The notes below the pieces were generated by a model, which saw only the letters and a list, made by a program, of their open reading frames with translations, made no database searches and was not told the origin of the DNA. From an uncultured Chitinophaga sp. (lineage in GTDB: Bacteria > Bacteroidota > Bacteroidia > Cytophagales > Cyclobacteriaceae): DNA of 64,000 nucleotides. The number at the start of each line of letters is the position of its first letter. Positions within the stretch are counted from its first letter, which is position 1. The stretch covers positions 186,001 through 250,000 of the forward strand of contig CABHOK010000018.1 in assembly GCA_902168205.1 (NCBI GenBank), given 5' to 3'. The translations under genes were made by a program, and so were the position numbers. Below, piece by piece: positions 14,102 through 63,779 of this stretch.

Positions 14102-16315
14102 GTGTTAGGTACATTTAGATTTTTTAGACAGTATGATCAGATGGATTGTGGCCCCACCTGCCTCCGTATGATCGCCAAACATTATGGTAGAAACTACTCG
14201 TTACAATTCTTGCGAGCCAGAGCTTTTTTAGGCCGCGAGGGTGTTTCCCTATTGGGGATTAGTAGTGCTGCCGAAGAGATTGGATTCCGAACGTTGGGTA
14301 TAAAGCTACCGTTTGAGAAATTTATAAATGAAGCTCCTGTACCCAATATCGTCCACTGGAATCAAAATCACTTTGTCGTTGTGTATAAGATCAAAGGTAA
14401 AAACGTATTTGTTGCAGATCCTGCCAACGGCCTACTGAAATATACCCAGGAAGAATTTAGAAAGTCGTGGGCGTTAAGTGTTGAAAATGGAAATCACATT
14501 GGAGTAGCTCTGTTACTCGAGCCTTCTCCCGCATTTTACGAGCTAGATGCCGAAGAGGACACTCCTCAAAAAAAAGGCCTTTCGAAGTTATTGACTTACC
14601 TTCGGAACTACCGGAAATTTATAGTTCAGTTATTGTTAGGGTTGATTCTGGGGAGCATTATTCAGCTTATCCTTCCTTTCCTTACGCAATCGATAGTGGA
14701 TGTCGGTATCAATACACAGAATATAAATTTTATTTACCTGATCCTGGCGGGGCAGTTGATGCTATTCTTTAGTCGCACCGCAGTGGATTTTCTAAGGCGA
14801 TGGATACTGATGCATCTCAGTACCCGTATTAATATTTCGCTTATTTCAGATTTTCTGATGAAAATGATGAAGCTGCCTATATCTTTCTTTGATAGCAAGA
14901 TGGTAGGCGATCTACTTCAACGCATTGATGATCACTCCCGTGTTGAGCAGTTTCTGAGTTCTTCGTCCCTCAATATACTGTTTTCAGCTTTCAATCTCTT
15001 GATTTTCGGAACGGTACTGGCTTTTTACAATGTTCCTGTATTCTTTACTTTTTTTGGCTTCAGCACTATATATATAGTATATGTATTACTTTTTTTAAAG
15101 AAACGGGCGGCAATTGATTATAAACGCTTTGCTCAATTATCGAACAATCAAAATAGCTTGATCCAGTTGATACACGGTATGCAGGAAATCAAACTCAATA
15201 ACTGTGAAACGCAGAAGCGATGGGAATGGGAACGAATACAGGCTAAAATATTCCGGCTAAATGTTGATAGTGTAAAATTACTGCAGTACCAGGATGCGGG
15301 GAGTCTTTTTATAAATGAGCTTAAAAATATTCTTATTACGTTCATGACAGCGCTTGCTGTGATTGAGGGAAATATGACGCTTGGAATGATGCTGGCTGTG
15401 CAGTATATCATCGGGCAACTTAATTCTCCTATTAACGAATTCGTCAATTTCATGCGGCATTTACAAGACGCTCGTATTAGTCTTGATCGCATCGGCGAGA
15501 TCCACACCATGGAAAATGAAGAGGATGCTGTTGGTTCTGAGGACGCCATGCTGCAAACCAATTTATTGCCTCAATCGAAAACAATCATTCTAAATCAGGT
15601 TTCTTTTCAGTACGATGGTCCTCATTCTCCACGAATACTGGAAAGTATCGATCTTATTATACCCGAAGGAAAAGTAACCGCGATTGTAGGCACAAGCGGG
15701 AGTGGTAAAACAACATTGATGAAACTGCTATTGAAGTTTTACAATCCTGTGTCGGGAAGTATATCTTCCGGAGGTTCCAATTTGCAATATATATCTGCTG
15801 CCGCCTGGCGAAGGCAGTGCGGAGTGGTGATGCAGGATGGATACATTTTTTCCGATACGATAGCCCGAAATATAGGATTGTCGGATGAGACTATAGATCA
15901 CGCGAAGTTATTACATGCGGTGAAGGTCGCAAATATCCAGGATTTTATAGAGTCGCTTCCTCTGGGATACAACACGAAGATCGGCAGTAACGGTATTGGG
16001 CTAAGTCAAGGACAAAAGCAACGATTGTTGATTGCGCGTGCCGTATATAAGAATCCTGATTTTATTGTACTGGATGAAGCTACATCTGCGCTGGATGCCA
16101 ATAATGAAAAAATCATTATGGAGAATTTGAACGAATTCTTTAAAGGCAGAACAGTGGTTGTAATCGCACATCGCTTAAGTACTGTAAAAAATGCTGATCA
16201 GATCGTTGTCCTGGAAAAAGGACGAATTGTCGAGGGAGGAACGCACGAGGACTTAACGAAGACAAGAGGAATATATTTCAACCTCGTGAAAAATCAATTG
16301 GAGTTAGGCAATTAA
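14102..16315 (+). CDS. Peptidase-containing ABC transporter (C39 protease, bacteriocin/RiPP exporter)
   Basis: A 737-residue exporter that removes a double-glycine leader and pumps the peptide out. The N-terminal C39 domain has the catalytic Cys16 in MDCGPTCLRMIAKHYG, then HFVVV (His) and VADPANG (Asp). Transmembrane segments span about 170-440. The nucleotide-binding domain has Walker A TSGSGKTT near residue 530, signature LSQGQKQR, Walker B FIVLDEATSALD and H-loop AHRLS. The start must be GTG 14102: an in-frame stop lies at 14096-14098 and FFRQYDQMDCGPTC is needed for the fold. The precursor with a matching GG leader lies 0.5 kb downstream, and the HlyD partner is at 20124. Confidence 0.93.
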   Translation: MLGTFRFFRQYDQMDCGPTCLRMIAKHYGRNYSLQFLRARAFLGREGVSLLGISSAAEEIGFRTLGIKLPFEKFINEAPVPNIVHWNQNHFVVVYKIKGKNVFVADPANGLLKYTQEEFRKSWALSVENGNHIGVALLLEPSPAFYELDAEEDTPQKKGLSKLLTYLRNYRKFIVQLLLGLILGSIIQLILPFLTQSIVDVGINTQNINFIYLILAGQLMLFFSRTAVDFLRRWILMHLSTRINISLISDFLMKMMKLPISFFDSKMVGDLLQRIDDHSRVEQFLSSSSLNILFSAFNLLIFGTVLAFYNVPVFFTFFGFSTIYIVYVLLFLKKRAAIDYKRFAQLSNNQNSLIQLIHGMQEIKLNNCETQKRWEWERIQAKIFRLNVDSVKLLQYQDAGSLFINELKNILITFMTALAVIEGNMTLGMMLAVQYIIGQLNSPINEFVNFMRHLQDARISLDRIGEIHTMENEEDAVGSEDAMLQTNLLPQSKTIILNQVSFQYDGPHSPRILESIDLIIPEGKVTAIVGTSGSGKTTLMKLLLKFYNPVSGSISSGGSNLQYISAAAWRRQCGVVMQDGYIFSDTIARNIGLSDETIDHAKLLHAVKVANIQDFIESLPLGYNTKIGSNGIGLSQGQKQRLLIARAVYKNPDFIVLDEATSALDANNEKIIMENLNEFFKGRTVVVIAHRLSTVKNADQIVVLEKGRIVEGGTHEDLTKTRGIYFNLVKNQLELGN

Positions 16316-16328
16316 TATATCGTTCATT

Positions 16329-16640
16329 ATGAGTTTGCTAAAATATATACAGCGGCTAAAACGCATTGATGACCTCGTTAGCAGAAAGGCTACGGGTAAT
16401 GCTGTGGAATTTGCCGCCAGGCTCGGTATTTCCAGGAGTCAATTACTGCAGGACATCAGAGAGTTGAGAGAGCTAGGTGCTGAAATTGAGTATTGCTCTA
16501 TACAGCGATCATACTATTATAAACAGGGCTACGGTATGGTCATCAGCTTTCCCAACGAAGGAAGTCGGATAAAAGGCGGAAAAAAAATAGCAAGTTTTTT
16601 GTCAGTCCAGCATGACTGGATCAACAATTTTTATTTTTAA
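16329..16640 (+). CDS. Small winged-helix/HTH protein of the RiPP cluster
   Basis: A 103-residue protein whose residues about 5-70 form a DeoR/WYL-type HTH (TGNAVEFAARLGISRSQLLQDIRELRELG), followed by YYYKQGYG. It starts 13 bases after the transporter and precedes the precursor gene, so it is probably co-transcribed. It could regulate the cluster, but it lacks a ligand-binding domain. Small HTH proteins of this kind occur in Bacteroidota peptide clusters; the exact role here is inferred. Confidence 0.75.
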   Translation: MSLLKYIQRLKRIDDLVSRKATGNAVEFAARLGISRSQLLQDIRELRELGAEIEYCSIQRSYYYKQGYGMVISFPNEGSRIKGGKKIASFLSVQHDWINNFYF

Positions 16641-16798
16641 CTGCCGGGTAAAAAACAACCTTGGGTTAGTATAGCAACCGTTGAGATACAAAAGAGTATA
16701 TATATATATAACGCTCTGCGTGAAAAAAAAATACTGCAGTATAGGCGGATTCTGAAAAGCCTTAATAGAGTAGGAACCCAAACAATAATTTTTGATTT

Positions 16799-16948
16799 AT
16801 GAAATTCGAAAGTATTAAGAACGAGAAATTTGAGATGCTAACATCAGAAGAACTTAACCAGATTAAAGGCGGTACAGCTCCTTCGGTTGTTCTGACGTAT
16901 GATGACGTTAAAAATGACGAAGAAGAAAAAGATCGTTACGCTGATTAA
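16799..16948 (+). CDS. Grasp-with-spasm RiPP precursor peptide with GG leader
   Basis: A 49-residue gene. The leader (MKFESIKNEKFEMLTSEELN...KGG) ends in a double glycine at residues 24-25 after LTSEELNQIK, the pattern recognised by C39 proteases and by Bacteroidota natural-product leaders. The 24-residue core begins TAPSVVLTYDD and ends DEEEKDRYAD. It has two Thr and one Ser as possible hydroxyl partners and nine acidic residues (Asp and Glu), which suits omega-ester or amide crosslinks made by an ATP-grasp ligase. It has no Cys. It sits between the transporter/HTH genes and the ATP-grasp gene. The upstream 158 bases hold (TA)7 at 16697-16710 and a 12-bp palindrome at 16731-16742. The class is well supported; the modification sites are inferred. 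Confidence 0.85.
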   Translation: MKFESIKNEKFEMLTSEELNQIKGGTAPSVVLTYDDVKNDEEEKDRYAD

Positions 16949-16969
16949 GCGATGATCTGAATCATGAAG

Positions 16970-17018
16970 GCTGACTTAAAAGCTTCTCTCTACGGGAAGC
17001 TTTTTTGTCAGCTTTTTT
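16970..17018 (+). terminator. Terminator/attenuator between RiPP precursor and ATP-grasp gene
   Basis: Nested stems GCTGAC/GTCAGC (16970-16975 with 17007-17012) and AAAAGCTTC/GAAGCTTTT are followed by six T (17013-17018). It begins 21 bases after the precursor stop and ends 23 bases before the ATP-grasp ATG. Such a site would let many precursor transcripts stop while some read through into the enzymes. Confidence 0.85.
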
Positions 17019-17041
17019 ATAATAATTCTTTGTTGAGTGAA

Positions 17042-18049
17042 ATGATTTTAATCTTTAGTAAGAGTAAAGCGGAGATCACGACAGAACAAGTTATAGACTG
17101 GATTCAATTTTATGATCAGTCATGGAAAAGAATCAATGGGAGTGATCTTGAGAATTTTGATCTATATATTTCGCTGGATGAGAGTTCAGATAAGATTCGT
17201 ATTGGCGATTACCTGTTGAATGCCGATGATGTTAACGTTGTTTGGTTCCGGCGGTGGCAGGATAATATTCCTTATAAAGAGTTGGTGGCTTTTGACGACA
17301 CTATATCTTACGAGGTAAAGTCTCATTATAAGTTGGAACGCAAAAAATTAAGTCAGTTGTTGTTTGACACATTTAGCGATATACACTGGCTTTCGTTTCC
17401 GGATGATGATTTTAATAAATTCAAAGCACTGAGAGTAGCAAAAAAGGTAGGGCTTTCCATACCGGCTACCTATATTGTCAACAATATAAAAGACCTCAAG
17501 TCTGTCGTTAACAGCGAGGATAAAATTATAACAAAGTGCATTAGCGAATCGCCGGCCTATTTTTCAAAGAAGCACTCGTATATGATGTACACACGGGAGT
17601 TTATCTATGAAGAGGTGGAAATTGAAGGTGATAGGTTTTTCCCTACGCTATTTCAAACGAAGATAGAGAAGGAATATGAGCTTCGTATCTTTTATCTTGA
17701 TGGAGTTTGCTATAGTATGGCTATTTTCTCGCAGCGAGACGACAGGACCCGGGACGATTTTCGGAATTACAATTTTTCAAAACCGAATAGAAATGTTCCG
17801 TATAAATTACCGGCTTCTATAGAAGAGAAAATTGTTCTACTGATGCAGCGGCTGGAAATGGATACGGGGTCAATAGACATGGTTAAAAGTATAGATGGCG
17901 AGTATATATTTTTGGAAGTGAATCCTGTAGGGCAATTCGGAATGACATCAGAGCCTTGTAATTATTATCTTGAGAAAAAAGTAGCGGAGTATCTGGTTGA
18001 TAAAAATGTAGATCATGGAAGAAAATCTGAGAGATCTGTTTCCCGATGA
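17042..18049 (+). CDS. gwsG: Grasp-with-spasm system ATP-grasp peptide maturase
   Basis: A 335-residue ATP-grasp ligase expected to activate Asp/Glu side chains of the precursor core and join them to Thr/Ser or Lys. The start is ATG 17042 (MILIFSKSKAEITTEQVIDW); a frame from 16964 would begin inside the terminator hairpin. Visible family marks are VVWFRRW (about 83-90), the central ATP-binding region (SIPATYIVNN...KIITKCI), YELRIFYLDG and the metal-binding EVNPVGQFGM near the C-terminus. It is followed by an overlapping small ORF and the SPASM gene. The grasp-with-spasm assignment rests on the neighbouring SPASM gene and GG precursor. The crosslink chemistry is inferred from characterised graspetide ligases. 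Confidence 0.88.
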   Translation: MILIFSKSKAEITTEQVIDWIQFYDQSWKRINGSDLENFDLYISLDESSDKIRIGDYLLNADDVNVVWFRRWQDNIPYKELVAFDDTISYEVKSHYKLERKKLSQLLFDTFSDIHWLSFPDDDFNKFKALRVAKKVGLSIPATYIVNNIKDLKSVVNSEDKIITKCISESPAYFSKKHSYMMYTREFIYEEVEIEGDRFFPTLFQTKIEKEYELRIFYLDGVCYSMAIFSQRDDRTRDDFRNYNFSKPNRNVPYKLPASIEEKIVLLMQRLEMDTGSIDMVKSIDGEYIFLEVNPVGQFGMTSEPCNYYLEKKVAEYLVDKNVDHGRKSERSVSR

Positions 18050-18212
18050 AACACTGAAGAGACTGCCATTGAATTATAGGCTGATAACGAAGAAGGAGTT
18101 CAGAGAAGATAATTCAATGAAGGTTAGAAATGCATCCTGCTCGCGTTACAATGCAGAGAAGTTTAGTTGTATTTCTTATTACAAACCTATTTCGCGGATT
18201 GTTAAAAAATAA
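18015..18212 (+). CDS. Small unknown ORF between ATP-grasp and SPASM genes
   Basis: A 65-residue frame, ATG 18015 to TAA 18212. It overlaps the last 35 bases of the ATP-grasp gene and ends 3 bases before the GTG of the SPASM gene, which is typical of translational coupling. The sequence (MEENLRDLFPDETLKRLP...) is charged, with two Cys (NASCSRYNAEKFSC). No family is recognised. It may be a real accessory peptide or a coupling frame that only feeds ribosomes to the GTG start. Confidence 0.5.
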   Translation: MEENLRDLFPDETLKRLPLNYRLITKKEFREDNSMKVRNASCSRYNAEKFSCISYYKPISRIVKK

Positions 18213-18215
18213 CGT

Positions 18216-19199
18216 GTGAAGTTTAAGTTATACGCGAATTGTATACCCACCAAGGGTGCTCAGAGAAGCACTATCTGTGATGTTCAGCGGGGAGATATTT
18301 ATTTAATTCCCAATGCATTGTTCGATATACTGTCGCAACATCCAAATAAATCTGTGGATGAAGTGAAGGGATATTATGATGAATCTAATGCGCAGGTAAT
18401 TGATGAATACTTTTCATTTTTAATAGATAATGAGCTGGGATTTTTTTGTAACAACCCGGAAAATTTCCCGGATATAGAGCTTGCATGGGAAAGTCCGGAA
18501 GTTATAACAAATGCTATTGTTGACATAGATTCCACATCTACGTATACTATAGATAAGGTTCTGCAAGAGCTGCAGGATCTTGGCTGTAAGAATATAGAGT
18601 TTAGAATTTATAATGGTTATGATCTTGAAAGGCTTACAGGCCTTTTGAATAAACTTGAAGATAGTATTTTCAGGTATGTTAGTTTATTGGTCCGGAGTCA
18701 TTATTCGTTTTCTGTTGAGAATATAAAGAATCTTTGCACGCAGTTCAGGAGGTTGCAAAGCGTAGTTGTGTTTGGCGCTGAAAAAGATCAAACGGAAGAT
18801 GATATTTTTTATACTACTCAAAATATAGAGTCTTCAAATTGTTGCGGCGTAGTGAGCTATAAGTACTTTACACCGAACCTCAAAATGTTTTCGGAGTCGA
18901 GAAATTTTAATTCATGCCTGAACCGGAAAGTCTCTATCGATGTGAAAGGAGTTATCCGGAATTGTCCATCCATGAAGGAAGGGTATGGCGATATTAATTA
19001 CACAGAACTACGTGAAGTTATACGCAAACCGGAATTTCAGAAATATTGGCATATTACGAAAGATGAAATTGATATTTGTAAAGTATGTGAATTTAGAAAT
19101 GTATGCACAGACTGTCGGGCTTTTACAAAAGAACCTCCATCATTATATTCCAAACCTTCGAAATGTTCTTATGATCCGTATACAACAACGTGGAATTAG
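18216..19199 (+). CDS. gwsS: Grasp-with-spasm system SPASM-domain peptide maturase
   Basis: A 327-residue protein. The GTG start at 18216 gives MKFKLYANCIPTKGAQRS, the usual family N-terminus. The C-terminal SPASM region has the cysteines for auxiliary iron-sulfur clusters: SCLNRK, RNCPSM, DICKVCEFRNVCTDCRA and SKCSYD. No CxxxCxxC radical-SAM motif is visible in the first half, so it is not an obvious radical SAM enzyme; in this system SPASM proteins partner the ATP-grasp ligase. It follows the small ORF by 3 bases and precedes the DUF6624-like gene by 13 bases, so it is part of one operon. Confidence 0.88.
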   Translation: MKFKLYANCIPTKGAQRSTICDVQRGDIYLIPNALFDILSQHPNKSVDEVKGYYDESNAQVIDEYFSFLIDNELGFFCNNPENFPDIELAWESPEVITNAIVDIDSTSTYTIDKVLQELQDLGCKNIEFRIYNGYDLERLTGLLNKLEDSIFRYVSLLVRSHYSFSVENIKNLCTQFRRLQSVVVFGAEKDQTEDDIFYTTQNIESSNCCGVVSYKYFTPNLKMFSESRNFNSCLNRKVSIDVKGVIRNCPSMKEGYGDINYTELREVIRKPEFQKYWHITKDEIDICKVCEFRNVCTDCRAFTKEPPSLYSKPSKCSYDPYTTTWN

Positions 19200-19212
19200 C
19201 ACATCAGACAAT

Positions 19213-20109
19213 ATGAAGTTTTTATATACTTTTTCGCTGATGTTTTTGTCACTTTTTTTTTCTTCGTCAGTTCACAGTCAGAATTATTCTGCATACGTAA
19301 AAAAAGCGGACTCTTGCTATGAATCGAAGTCATTCCTAACGTCAGCGCGATACTATCAATCGGCAATTGAGTCCATTAGCGAGAATTATGTTAACCCCAA
19401 TATATATTGCTCGTGTTCTATTTCATTTTCGAAAGCAGGTAAGAAAAATGATGCTATGCGCTACCTGAAGAAATGTATTCAACGGGCAGGCACATCAGCC
19501 TCCGAACTTGAAGAAAGTGAAGATTGGGATGCTATTAAAAAGAGTAAAGATTGGAAAACAATTATGAACTTAGCAGGTGACCAGGAAAAAATGAGAGATA
19601 CTGCGTTGATAAAAAAACTAAAAGATATCGGGAAGAAGGATCAATTCTTCAGAAGTAAGATTGATAGTATTTCCAGAAATAGAGTTGGTGACGCTGCTCT
19701 TCGCAAGAGTTATTTTCGACAGCAGGCTGCGCTTGACTCCATTAATTTGTTATCGGTGATTGCTATATTGAATGCAGAGGGATATCCTGATCGTACAAAG
19801 GCGTTTAAGTATGCGATCAACTTGTTCTTTGTGGTTCAACATTCCGATATATCGACTATGGAGACTTATTATCCTTTGTTTGAAAAGGCTGCGGAGAACG
19901 GTGATCTGGATTGGAAGGCGTTAGCACTTATGACCGACAGAATCCGCAAGAAAAAAGGACTTAAGCAGATATACGGAACTCAAACAGTAAAAGGGAGTGA
20001 CGGTAAGTGGGTTTTGTATGATGTTGAGAACGTTGAGTCGTTGAATGAACGAAGATTGAAGATAGGACTGGAACCTATAAATGAATATTTAAAGCTGATC
20101 AATTTATAG
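19213..20109 (+). CDS. Exported TPR / DUF6624-like protein of the RiPP cluster
   Basis: A 298-residue protein with the signal peptide MKFLYTFSLMFLSLFFSSSVHSQ (start ATG 19213). Residues about 25-110 look like TPR helices (YVKKADSCYESKSFLTSARYY). The C-terminal half has DUF6624 marks: VVQHSDISTMETYYP, ALMTDRIRKKKGLKQIYGTQ and NERRLKIGLEPI. The function of that domain is not known. It is the last gene of the operon and is exported, so it could act on or bind the mature peptide outside the cytoplasm, or provide self-protection; both are guesses from position. Confidence 0.75.
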   Translation: MKFLYTFSLMFLSLFFSSSVHSQNYSAYVKKADSCYESKSFLTSARYYQSAIESISENYVNPNIYCSCSISFSKAGKKNDAMRYLKKCIQRAGTSASELEESEDWDAIKKSKDWKTIMNLAGDQEKMRDTALIKKLKDIGKKDQFFRSKIDSISRNRVGDAALRKSYFRQQAALDSINLLSVIAILNAEGYPDRTKAFKYAINLFFVVQHSDISTMETYYPLFEKAAENGDLDWKALALMTDRIRKKKGLKQIYGTQTVKGSDGKWVLYDVENVESLNERRLKIGLEPINEYLKLINL

Positions 20110-20123
20110 GAGGCGATTCAATT

Positions 20124-21395
20124 CTATTGTCTGTCTCTCAGCAGATATCGGAATTGATAAAATATCCGGTCAATGATTCTCAGATCTTCTGTGATTATCT
20201 CCGTCTCGCCATGTAGTTGATTCTTAAATGGTAAATCTTTGTTGTAGGTTGTTAAGAGTCCCGTTGGTAATTCGATTTTGGCCAGGTATTTTTTGTCAGA
20301 TGGTATTTCAGATATTTCGGTAACGATTCCTCTCAACATGCCAAACTGTTCAGTAGGGAAATTAGCGAGTCGTATGTTTACGGCTTGGCCTTTTTGTACT
20401 TTTCCTGATCCGGCAATTGGTATTTCAGCCTGCGCATACATCTTTCTGGTATCCGGTATTATCGTGAACAATTCTTTTCCGGGCTCTGTATATATATTGT
20501 TGTCCAGAAATTTCAAATACGCTATAGTGCCTTCTATAGGTGTTATAAATAAGTAAGTTTCTTCCCACTTGGCAATTCTTGCCATTAGCTCGTTGCGTGT
20601 ATTTTCCGCGTTAAGAATTAGTTTATTATTCTGATCAGTTTTTTGAGCTTCTAGTTCTACGATCTGTTTCTGCAGTACACTGATCTGAATTTCGTTTACC
20701 GTTATACTTGACTCCGAGTTCTTATAGGTATGTTTTTGTTGAAGGTAAAGCGCCTGAGCGGCATTATAGTCTTGCGCAGAGTTTACCTGTTGCCTGAACA
20801 ACAGTGAATCACGTTTGAATTTTTCGTGTGCCAATGCAAGTTCTTCCTGGGTAATCGAGAACTGAGCGGAAAGTGTACTGCTTAATTTTTTATACGCGTT
20901 TTCCTGTTGTAAAAGTTGTTTTATCTGTTTGGAGTGAATGTCAATTTGCTGGAATCGATGAAGCTCGTTGGTTGCATTGAGGAAATCTGTAAAATAAGGT
21001 TGAATCTCACCAAGATTCCAGGAAGGGCTTTTATATAGTTCGGGACTTTTTTCCTGTACAGCCTTTTTCAGCGCGAGTACATCGAACGGATTTGCATTGG
21101 ATTTGATGTAGGCGATCAGGTCTCCTGTTTGAACTTTGCTGTTCTCTTTCTTTAGCAGCGTGATGTTTCCGGAAGTTCGTGACGGAAGCGTTAATGGTGG
21201 GGGAGATGTAGTAACAACAACGGTAGCATTAATGATATCAGGGTATTTAATAAACCAGCAGAGCAACAACAATACGGTAAACAAAGCAAAGATGAGTGTA
21301 ATACCCCACCGGTTTATCCATCCCGGAACTTCACTGATTATTTCTTGTATCTCATCACTGTGAATTTCAATTTTTCGTATAGAGCCTTCTTTCAT
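20124..21395 (-). CDS. HlyD-family membrane fusion protein of the RiPP exporter
   Basis: A 423-residue periplasmic adaptor that links the C39 ABC transporter to an outer-membrane channel. It has one N-terminal membrane helix at about 31-49 after a charged cytoplasmic start. A lipoyl half (TLPSRTSGNITLLKKENSKVQTGD...) follows, then a long coiled-coil hairpin (about 115-270), the second lipoyl half (TPIEGTIAYLKFLDNNIYTEPG) and a beta-barrel region (GSGKVQKGQAVNIRLANFP). It is convergent with the rest of the cluster, ending 14 bases from the DUF6624-like gene, so it has its own promoter. No TolC gene lies in the window. Confidence 0.9.
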   Translation of the reverse strand: MKEGSIRKIEIHSDEIQEIISEVPGWINRWGITLIFALFTVLLLLCWFIKYPDIINATVVVTTSPPPLTLPSRTSGNITLLKKENSKVQTGDLIAYIKSNANPFDVLALKKAVQEKSPELYKSPSWNLGEIQPYFTDFLNATNELHRFQQIDIHSKQIKQLLQQENAYKKLSSTLSAQFSITQEELALAHEKFKRDSLLFRQQVNSAQDYNAAQALYLQQKHTYKNSESSITVNEIQISVLQKQIVELEAQKTDQNNKLILNAENTRNELMARIAKWEETYLFITPIEGTIAYLKFLDNNIYTEPGKELFTIIPDTRKMYAQAEIPIAGSGKVQKGQAVNIRLANFPTEQFGMLRGIVTEISEIPSDKKYLAKIELPTGLLTTYNKDLPFKNQLHGETEIITEDLRIIDRIFYQFRYLLRDRQ

Positions 21396-63176: not shown

Positions 63177-63262
63177 GGGGGAATACCAAAGCGGCCAACT
63201 GGGACAGACTGTAAATCTGTTGTCTTATGACTTCATAGGTTCGAATCCTATTTCCCCCACCA
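63177..63262 (+). tRNA. tRNA-Tyr (anticodon GTA)
   Basis: The acceptor arm GGGGGAA pairs with TTCCCCC. The anticodon stem ACAGA/TCTGT holds the loop CTGTAAA with GTA at 63211-63213. The long variable arm marks a class II tRNA, and the 3' CCA is encoded (63260-63262). Confidence 0.96.
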
Positions 63263-63338
63263 TTAATTGCAGATATATAGTATGATTAGCCTAAGAGTAT
63301 ATCCCTGGCGAAGTCATAATTTTATTTTGCAACGTAAT

Positions 63339-63411
63339 GCGGGAGTAGCTCAGTTGGTAGAGCGATAGCCTTCCAAGCTATAGGTCGCGGGTTCGAGCCT
63401 CGTCTCCCGCT
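63339..63411 (+). tRNA. tRNA-Gly (anticodon TCC)
   Basis: The acceptor arm GCGGGAG/CTCCCGC, D arm and T loop (GGTTCGAG) are normal. The anticodon stem ATAGC/GCTAT holds CTTCCAA. CCA is not encoded. Confidence 0.96.
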
Positions 63412-63420
63412 CTCATTTGA

Positions 63421-63495
63421 GCCGTTATCCGTTGATCGTTATCCGTTAGTCGTAAAAAGTACGGTTGACGAAAATAACGGGTAACGTATAACGGC
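63421..63495. repeat. Dispersed GTTATCCGTTA-type repeat between tRNA genes (copy 5)
   Basis: Outer arms GCCGTTAT (63421-63428) and ATAACGGC (63488-63495) are exact inverted repeats. Inside, CGTTATCCGTTAGTCG faces CGGTTGACGAAAATAACGGG. It lies 9 bases after tRNA-Gly and 5 bases before tRNA-Thr. Confidence 0.7.
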
Positions 63496-63500
63496 ACTAA

Positions 63501-63572
<72 letters not shown>

Positions 63573-63779
63573 CTCGAAAAAAAAATGTTTGTCAGACAAA
63601 TAAGCGCTGCGACCTAGCAAATCACGGCTGTCGGCATTCATAAACATATTGGAGATTACCCTTTTCGAAAGGCTTAAAATGTTCAGGGTGTTTGGTTCGG
63701 CAGCGGCTGAACTTATGGAAGAAGCAAAACAAATTTCATAACACTTATAATTTTAAACTTTTAACTGGGATTTTCAAAT
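63573..63779 (+). other. tuf leader region
   Basis: Two hundred bases without a clear gene. One frame is open from about 63607 to a stop just before 63745 and contains MFRVFGSAAAELMEEAKQIS from an ATG near 63679; no family is recognised, so it may be a remnant or chance. Confidence 0.3.

Follow-up and report, generated by a model that had tools for sequence, protein, structure and literature searches.

A probable grasp-with-spasm graspetide cluster accompanied by an HTH protein with its own double-glycine leader

Introduction

The stretch of DNA analysed here (64,000 nucleotides, referred to as the window) contains a group of genes at positions 14102-21395 which raises two connected questions, namely whether they encode the synthesis and export of a peptide of the graspetide class, and why a small HTH protein in their midst ends in a double-glycine leader and a short tail (referred to as HTH-GG protein). 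The locus had been described in an initial annotation as a complete grasp-with-spasm RiPP cluster with a short precursor gene and a probably undescribed product. The present computational analysis covers the family membership of the proteins, the conservation of the precursor, a match to the DUF805b RNA element, a terminator-like hairpin, the absence of a CxxxCxxC motif from the SPASM protein, the link between HTH-GG proteins and C39 exporters, and palindromes recurring in the HTH genes.

Related loci have been published. In the sections of PMC8939145 considered here, branch 5 is characterized by a GG precursor upstream of the ATP-grasp gene, an LPL gene directly before the SPASM gene and diverse cores, with C39-ABC and HlyD genes as frequent neighbours, a secreted protein (cluster 23) and representatives in Bacteroidetes. 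The locus shares the ATP-grasp, SPASM and LPL proteins, the GG precursor, the C39-ABC exporter and the HlyD adaptor with this branch, whereas a GG-tailed HTH protein, DUF805b or a palindrome are not mentioned in those sections. Judged from the group description rather than from a network, the locus would also belong to group 14 of PMC13097080, all members of which are reported there to contain a SPASM protein and, in many cases, an NHLM-type transporter; the two characterized partner-dependent graspetides covered in the part of that paper considered here rely on other partners than those encoded in this locus.

Results and Discussion

Gene content and affiliation of the cluster

All genes named in the initial annotation were found at their proposed positions (Table 1), and the ATP-grasp and SPASM proteins exceed the NCBI cut-offs of the grasp-with-spasm models TIGR04192 and TIGR04193, respectively, as expected for a complete cluster of this type. 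An LPL-type gene directly before that for the SPASM protein and the C-terminal IKGG motif of the HTH protein had been overlooked, as had the position of the precursor gene between the DUF805b element and the hairpin. The interpretation as graspetide cluster stands, but catalysis of the radical SAM type is improbable for the SPASM protein, and the HTH protein has a double-glycine leader of its own. Because the curated models, the gene order and a conserved precursor agree, the locus can be regarded with considerable confidence as a grasp-with-spasm graspetide cluster. It thus represents one further graspetide with an apparently undescribed core; the expected novelty of the peptide appears upheld in this respect, whereas the cluster type is already known from branch 5 and group 14 as described in the two papers. 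The cluster is absent from the six other genomes of the genus.

Table 1. Features of the predicted graspetide cluster and its surroundings (positions in the window).
Feature	Position	Strand	Evidence or remark
C39-peptidase ABC exporter	14102..16315	+	PF03412, E 1.6e-36; ABC_tran, ABC_membrane
HTH-GG protein	16329..16640	+	winged-HTH-type domain, SRIKGG, 19-residue tail
Palindrome TCCAG-CATGA-CTGGA	16606..16620	.	inside HTH tail codons; candidate operator
DUF805b RNA element (RF02914)	16742..16776	+	48.4 bits, gathering 35.6, E 2e-12
Predicted graspetide precursor	16799..16948	+	49 codons; leader ending in GG and 24-residue core
Terminator-like hairpin	16969..17013	+	-27.1 kcal/mol, z -8.9, followed by U run
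ATP-grasp ligase (GRASP_w_spasm)	17042..18049	+	TIGR04192, 307 bits, cut-off 230
LPL-type small protein, 65 aa	18015..18212	+	relatives between ATP-grasp and SPASM genes; position and LP motif
SPASM protein without radical SAM motif, RRE-like N-terminal part	18216..19199	+	TIGR04193, 329 bits, cut-off 175
DUF6624 protein	19213..20109	+	PF20329, 43.1 bits, cut-off 27
HlyD-type adaptor	20124..21395	-	HlyD_D23, 35.7 bits, cut-off 30; HlyD_3, 31 bits

The proposed start of the ATP-grasp gene fits, since the match to TIGR04192 starts only at residue 28 when the longer ORF is used, and translation from the alternative ATG at 16964, located 5 nt upstream of the strong hairpin, would cross this structure. 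The LPL-type protein is tentatively assigned to the published LPL family (PMC8939145, in the sections considered) by its position and LP motif rather than by the alignment used there, and a corresponding ORF is present in 51 of 61 loci containing both ATP-grasp and SPASM genes. The gene for the DUF6624 protein starts near 19213, not at 18985, and its product carries an N-terminal stretch resembling a signal peptide, as judged by eye. Our guess is that it corresponds to the secreted protein of cluster 23 in branch 5; according to the part of PMC13097080 considered, DUF6624 proteins are frequent in groups 18, 20, 23, and 42.

HTH proteins with double-glycine leaders

The HTH-GG gene begins 13 nt after the exporter gene. 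Its product scores slightly below the cut-off of the HTH_11 model (23.6 versus 25 bits), while residues 8-68 resemble the HTH part of WYL regulators (match to the start of the PADLOC model, E 7.8e-7); in contrast to these regulators, it contains no WYL domain, but a double-glycine leader and a short tail instead. A sequence search of the PDB with the HTH profile yielded weak matches, mostly to antibodies, and a single-sequence structure model was set aside (pLDDT 46). Orthologues with [IL]KGG occur in four other loci (L070, L073, L076, L094), and GG-tailed HTH proteins extend to further families and classes of the phylum; no description of them was found in the open PMC literature.

The HTH-GG family overall matches the leader signature of C39 substrates (hydrophobic at -12 and -4, acidic at -8, Gly at -2 and -1), in that position -12 is hydrophobic in 84% of cases and 27 of 43 proteins have Asp or Glu at -8, the residue at -4 being fixed by the search pattern. 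The protein of the window shows Glu at -8, Ile at -4 and Gly-Gly, with Ser rather than a hydrophobic residue at -12. A first set of 85 loci, obtained with a profile (A1) built from five seeds, contained 38 GG, five AG and seven KK forms and 35 proteins with none of these, and a C39 exporter was encoded in the locus for 37 of the 43 GG/AG forms versus 10 of the 35 untailed ones. As all five seeds carried KGG, the search was rerun with a profile of the HTH part only, from which the best 92 of 118 listed places were taken; one without an HTH ORF (L365) was removed, and 50 of the remaining 91 proteins have no GG, AG or KK tail. With kinship ignored, a C39 exporter gene is found within 4.5 kb for 32 of 38 GG/AG-tailed proteins versus 11 of 50 untailed ones; if the gene is required to share the strand and to be no more than 200 nt away, the values are 28 of 38 versus 7 of 50. 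Exporters may be undercounted in these values, with a flank of only about 1.5 kb at L284, L287, L289, L293, L298 and L313 (one GG, five untailed) and some other loci ending at contig borders.

Leader and tail of these proteins evolve differently. The leader exhibits a pN/pS ratio of 0.16 (12 pairs), while the value of 0.53 for the tail is accompanied by a pS reduced to 0.29 and therefore indicates constraint on the DNA rather than on the peptide, suggesting that the leader is conserved as protein and the tail largely as DNA. The tail codons of the window gene contain a palindrome, a candidate operator, which is the sole exact match within the window. A looser pattern, selected post hoc, occurs in 28 of 76 HTH-GG/AG tails, which include doubtful members such as L231; 17 of these have perfect 4-bp arms, and 48 of the 76 tails lack the pattern. 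Its occurrence by chance is unlikely, as compared with 200 shuffles of the tails (mean 1.9, maximum 7) and the low values for HTH coding DNA (2 of 76) and untailed HTH genes (3 of 50). A pattern-free inverted-repeat score gave a less striking result, with a mean of 6.7 versus 5.5 for shuffled tails and 58 of 76 tails exceeding their own shuffle mean. A box of the type TAnnTTTG was flagged in 9 of the 76 tails; it was not found in the tail of the window gene, where the palindrome is not the top-scoring inverted repeat.

Our tentative reading is that the HTH-GG proteins are exporter-coupled regulators. In the mechanism that we infer, of which the binding, cutting, ring-forming and regulatory steps are all predictions, the HTH-GG protein would bind the palindrome in the 3' end of its own gene and control the precursor promoter, and its double-glycine leader would allow the C39 domain of the exporter to hold or cut it, so that transcription of the precursor would track the export capacity: a free exporter would capture or cut the regulator, and an exporter occupied by precursor would leave it free. 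One short stretch of DNA would then act as export tag, binding site and precursor promoter, and the DUF805b element would provide additional control at the RNA level in many HTH-GG loci. It is conceivable, with similar caution, that these proteins form an undescribed class of Bacteroidota regulators in which a C39 leader replaces the sensor domain, the exporter does the sensing and the operator often lies within the last codons. If true, this coupling of peptide synthesis to export through a recurrent, leader-bearing HTH protein would be new, and the protein would provide a marker for peptide loci in the phylum.

It appears doubtful that the HTH-GG protein itself serves as precursor, with its tail set free by the C39 exporter to act as pheromone or second peptide and its HTH domain used as leader or dual-use regulator. 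The C39-type signature ahead of the GG and the fast-evolving tails, which are rich in Leu, Ser, Phe, and Ile and mostly comprise 10-36 residues in the 43 proteins, would suit such a role; the constraint on the DNA rather than the peptide and the palindromes in the tail codons argue against it, as do the near-absent tails of some members (two residues in L351, none in L219) and the KK forms, which still adjoin C39 exporters without a GG motif (3 of 3 in the HTH-only set, 6 of 7 in the first set). Similarly, it is unlikely that the GG motif is inherited baggage without a role and that its link to C39 exporters stems from the shared ancestry of a few operons. Such a view would be in line with association statistics that ignore kinship and with the many family members devoid of a tail, but conflicts with the low pN/pS of the leader, the different codons used for KGG in the window, L076 and L070, and the spread of GG forms beyond one family and class.

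The SPASM protein

The family of the SPASM protein is termed a radical SAM enzyme in PMC8939145, as far as considered here, yet shows no catalytic motif: neither CxxxCxxC nor a relaxed CxnCxxC occurs within the first 200 residues of any of 62 family members, the protein of the window included. As the CxxxCxxC motif is missing from this region in all 62 sequences, a catalytic role as radical SAM enzyme is improbable for the protein, and it may act as a non-radical partner. The SPASM cysteines are retained, with eight columns containing Cys in 50-58 of the 62 proteins (C210, C234, C250, C288, C291, C297, C300, and C317 in the numbering of the window protein). The best structural matches of a model of the protein are the radical SAM/SPASM peptide maturases CteB and SuiB (E 6e-7 to 3e-4, TMq 0.31-0.42), which share the RRE-like N-terminal part, but differ from the shorter window protein in carrying CxxxCxxC; the first part of the model best matches the RRE-leader complex of TbiB1. 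This fold, together with the published label and the conservation of Cys9 (60 of 62), Cys21 (46 of 62) and Cys210 (52 of 62), would be compatible with a genuine radical SAM enzyme whose cluster site deviates from the standard and which modifies the peptide further. We consider this improbable in view of the missing motifs and of a precursor core without Cys.

Precursor peptide and RNA elements

Translation of the ORF bears out the double-glycine gene and the Asp/Glu-rich core with two Thr and one Ser that had been proposed: the leader terminates in IKGG, and the core contains five Asp, three Glu and two Lys in addition, with a calculated unmodified mass of 2771.277 Da. A GG-leader peptide is also kept at this position in a relative, as had been predicted, since L076 from another genus contains a 53-residue ORF with 56% identity, including the core. 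The 49-codon gene is therefore more than a chance ORF. Thr26, Thr33, Asp36, Asp40, Glu43, Lys44, and Asp45 are common to both peptides, and the core was found in just this one further genome. The precursor scores below the cut-off of the curated model TIGR04149 (13 bits, cut-off 25) and marginally above that of ComC in Pfam (20.5, cut-off 20.4), the latter match being confined to the leader. That the product of the gene is a double-glycine bacteriocin or pheromone left unmodified, as the similarity of its leader to ComC and class II leaders might imply, or that the cluster has lost its activity, is very improbable, given the open and full-length reading frames for precursor, ATP-grasp, SPASM protein, exporter and HlyD adaptor and the conservation of Thr and acidic core residues in L076.

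As a predicted graspetide, the precursor would attach via its leader to the RRE-like region of the SPASM protein, possibly with participation of the LPL-type protein, and the ATP-grasp ligase would link Thr33, and perhaps Thr26, to Asp or Glu carboxylates through ester bonds, or Lys44 through an amide bond; an ester or amide ring is expected here from the genes and the class they indicate. The exporter would then cleave behind Gly-Gly and release the ring-closed 24-mer with the aid of the HlyD adaptor, and the product may act as a protease inhibitor, as characterized graspetides do.

The hairpin is located between the precursor and ATP-grasp genes. If most transcripts end there, as we propose, the precursor would outnumber the enzymes. 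A sigma-70/terminator scan gave results little above those for shuffled sequences and, owing to its restriction on loop size, failed to detect the hairpin. The DUF805b element ends 22 nt upstream of the precursor ATG, and folding of a 66-nt stretch around it was no better than that of shuffles (z 0.68). The element is present in 124 of 196 genomes of the family and five times in the source genome, with three copies above the cut-off; no paper naming it was found in the open PMC literature. Known from Rfam, it lies here upstream of a peptide precursor, as it does with GG precursors in the nine grasp loci in which it was found, and this orphan RNA element can thus flag precursor genes. An alignment of the element (A5) was not used, as row L258 was misplaced. 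Specificity of DUF805b for peptide precursors was rejected: by a loose rule, a GG-type small ORF follows in only 8 of 34 loci, two of which are doubtful (L242, L252); L238 was misplaced by the script. Many of the other DUF805b loci precede secreted-looking genes, as judged by eye.

The cluster and its SPASM protein

The grasp-with-spasm cluster of the window is a further member of an already published cluster type. Curated models confirmed the ATP-grasp and SPASM proteins named in the initial annotation, as well as the domains of its C39-ABC exporter, DUF6624-like and HlyD genes, and matches to both ATP-grasp and SPASM were present in 61 of the 66 loci compared (65 fetched plus the window). 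An LPL-type ORF, detected by a profile seeded with the LPL ORF of the window and grown in two rounds, occurs in 51 of these 61 loci; profile matches for the ABC exporter, HlyD, DUF6624 and HTH proteins were obtained in 41, 34, 26 and 7 of them, respectively, the DNA examined per locus often being short. The LPL-type ORFs carry an LP-type motif in 35 of the 51 cases and a motif resembling the KPISR of the window close to the C-terminus in 28. PMC8939145 describes loci of this kind as branch 5 and places LPL proteins between ATP-grasp and SPASM, as in the window, and PMC13097080 records a SPASM protein in all members of group 14 and frequent DUF6624 genes in groups 18, 20, 23 and 42.

No CxxxCxxC motif is found within the first 200 residues of any of the 62 SPASM family members (window included), although 50 to 58 of them retain the cysteines of the SPASM domain. 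An AlphaFold2 model of the SPASM protein (23 sequences, pLDDT 88.4, pTM 0.82) gave its best structural matches with CteB (E 6.4e-7) and SuiB (E 2.4e-5), radical SAM/SPASM peptide maturases with an RRE part, and also matched the TbiB1 leader complex, an RRE (probability 1.00, TMt 0.63, E 0.03). The protein is read as a leader-binding partner that would have lost the radical chemistry. PMC8939145 terms the family a radical SAM enzyme.

The HTH protein with its leader and tail

Features of the window around the precursor gene
Feature	Position	Description
HTH-GG protein	16329-16640	103 aa; C-terminus SRIKGG + 19 residues
Palindrome	16606-16620	sole exact match in 64 kb
DUF805b (RF02914)	16742-16776	Rfam match
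LPL-type gene	18015-18212	between ATP-grasp and SPASM; seed of the LPL profile

The sequence [IL]KGG follows the conserved HTH domain in four relatives within grasp loci and is absent from the HTH proteins of two further such loci (L074 and L082). Searched with a KGG-bearing profile, the HTH family turned up in 153 of the 390 genomes of the taxonomic family and in 49 of the 395 examined for the phylum, many of the weaker phylum matches being long proteins of another kind. Classification of 91 HTH proteins with an HTH-only profile yielded 31 GG, 7 AG and 3 KK tails and 50 proteins with none. A C39-ABC gene lies within 4.5 kb of 32 of the 38 GG/AG proteins versus 11 of the 50 untailed ones (Fisher p 6.7e-9). 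Counting same-strand genes no more than 200 nt away, the figures are 28 versus 7 (p 1.4e-8). GG-type small ORFs start within 500 nt downstream in 21 versus 11 cases (p 0.002) and in none of the three KK cases, kinship being ignored in all p values.

Pooled pN/pS values over 12 close pairs (L155 and L216 each entering two) are 0.10 (HTH part), 0.16 (leader) and 0.53 (tail); in the tail, pS drops to 0.29 from about 0.5. Conservation thus acts on the protein sequence in the leader and largely on the DNA in the tail. The tail DNA carries a TCYR-N6/7-YRGA palindrome in 28 of 76 cases, in some of them followed by TAnnTTTG, the Bacteroidota -7 box (flagged after the best repeat in 9 of the 76 tails). 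In L076, a locus from another genus, and in L159, palindrome and box also occur 5' of further precursors, with one HTH match per locus. The window palindrome has three matches in 64 kb with one mismatch allowed (1.3 expected) and lies 121 nt upstream of the DUF805b element; no TAnnTTTG box was found 3' of it.

The simplest account is that the HTH-GG protein would be a regulator which binds the palindrome and whose leader would be recognised by the C39 domain, so that precursor transcription would track exporter load. Its main rival holds that the tail is a secreted pheromone; docking is favoured because the KK forms keep leader-like residues without a cleavable GG, and because the tails of two members (L351 and L219) have almost zero length. 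No description of such a regulator with an embedded site was found in the open literature, and two curated libraries returned generic HTH matches only; as far as these searches show, it is undescribed.

The HTH proteins with Lys-Lys replacing Gly-Gly (INKKSL...CEI; L184, L186, L190, L191 and others) come from several genera, are adjoined by C39 exporters in six of seven loci, and are possibly uncleavable forms.

Precursor peptide and surrounding RNA elements

The initial annotation pointed to precursor alignment in relatives, and leader and core are indeed both common to the window and L076, which encodes a 53-aa ORF of 56% identity at the same position. Thr26, Thr33, Asp36, Asp40, Glu43, Lys44 and Asp45 are kept there and Ser29 is not; the likely acceptors in the core are Thr26 and Thr33, so that, barring an amide at Lys44, no more than two esters are expected. 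In a broader search the precursor matched 3 of 166 genomes, the third mainly in the leader. The cores of other grasp-with-spasm loci differ from that of the window, in line with the diverse cores reported for branch 5 in PMC8939145, which also states that characterised graspetides are protease inhibitors; one might guess the same of the window peptide. One grasp-with-spasm locus (L085, 10312-12281, minus strand) contains at least five consecutive GG-leader ORFs with unlike cores.

The scan for DUF805b covered 16 grasp loci (the window and L076 plus 14 further ones); it scored at E 0.01 or better, in some cases under the gathering threshold, in 9. The set is non-random, 7 of the 9 other scorers having been preselected by a motif pattern scan. 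A GG-type precursor lies directly 3' of a match in all nine scoring loci. The element was not found in the remaining seven (L034, L036, L037, L056, L058, L068, L070), L034 having a DUF805 match at a different place. Across the family it is present in 124 of 196 genomes, upstream of many genes besides GG precursors. In the genome of the window (L236-L239) and in family loci L240-L268 it stands about 20-50 nt 5' of many secreted-looking genes and also of GG precursors, and L076, L159 and L202 contain several GG precursors per locus, with DUF805b before each and the palindrome before some. A hairpin with a U run (-27.1 kcal/mol, z -8.9) lies 3' of the window precursor; L076 has one 5' of the ATP-grasp gene (z -3.7) and L070 one 3' of its last precursor (z -4.5).

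Distribution

The window covers positions 186001-250000 of one contig (C18) in a genome of 7.3 Mb and 20 contigs. The SPASM marker is present in this genome and in none of the six others of the genus; among 390 genomes of the family, 24 carry it, 18 of them above the cut-off. Such a patchy distribution is as expected for a peptide locus that is gained or lost. ATP-grasp relatives (37 loci) derive mostly from Bacteroidota (Chitinophaga, Pedobacter and Chryseobacterium among others), which points to this phylum for the window, and one from an Aminicenantes MAG. The latter grasp-with-spasm locus (L032, 7137-8089), whose contig is labelled Candidatus Aminicenantes, outside Bacteroidota, has its SPASM match broken across two ORFs, and its placement could reflect a binning error or transfer. 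Three consecutive tRNA genes (Tyr, Gly, Thr) are located at 63177-63573 of the window.
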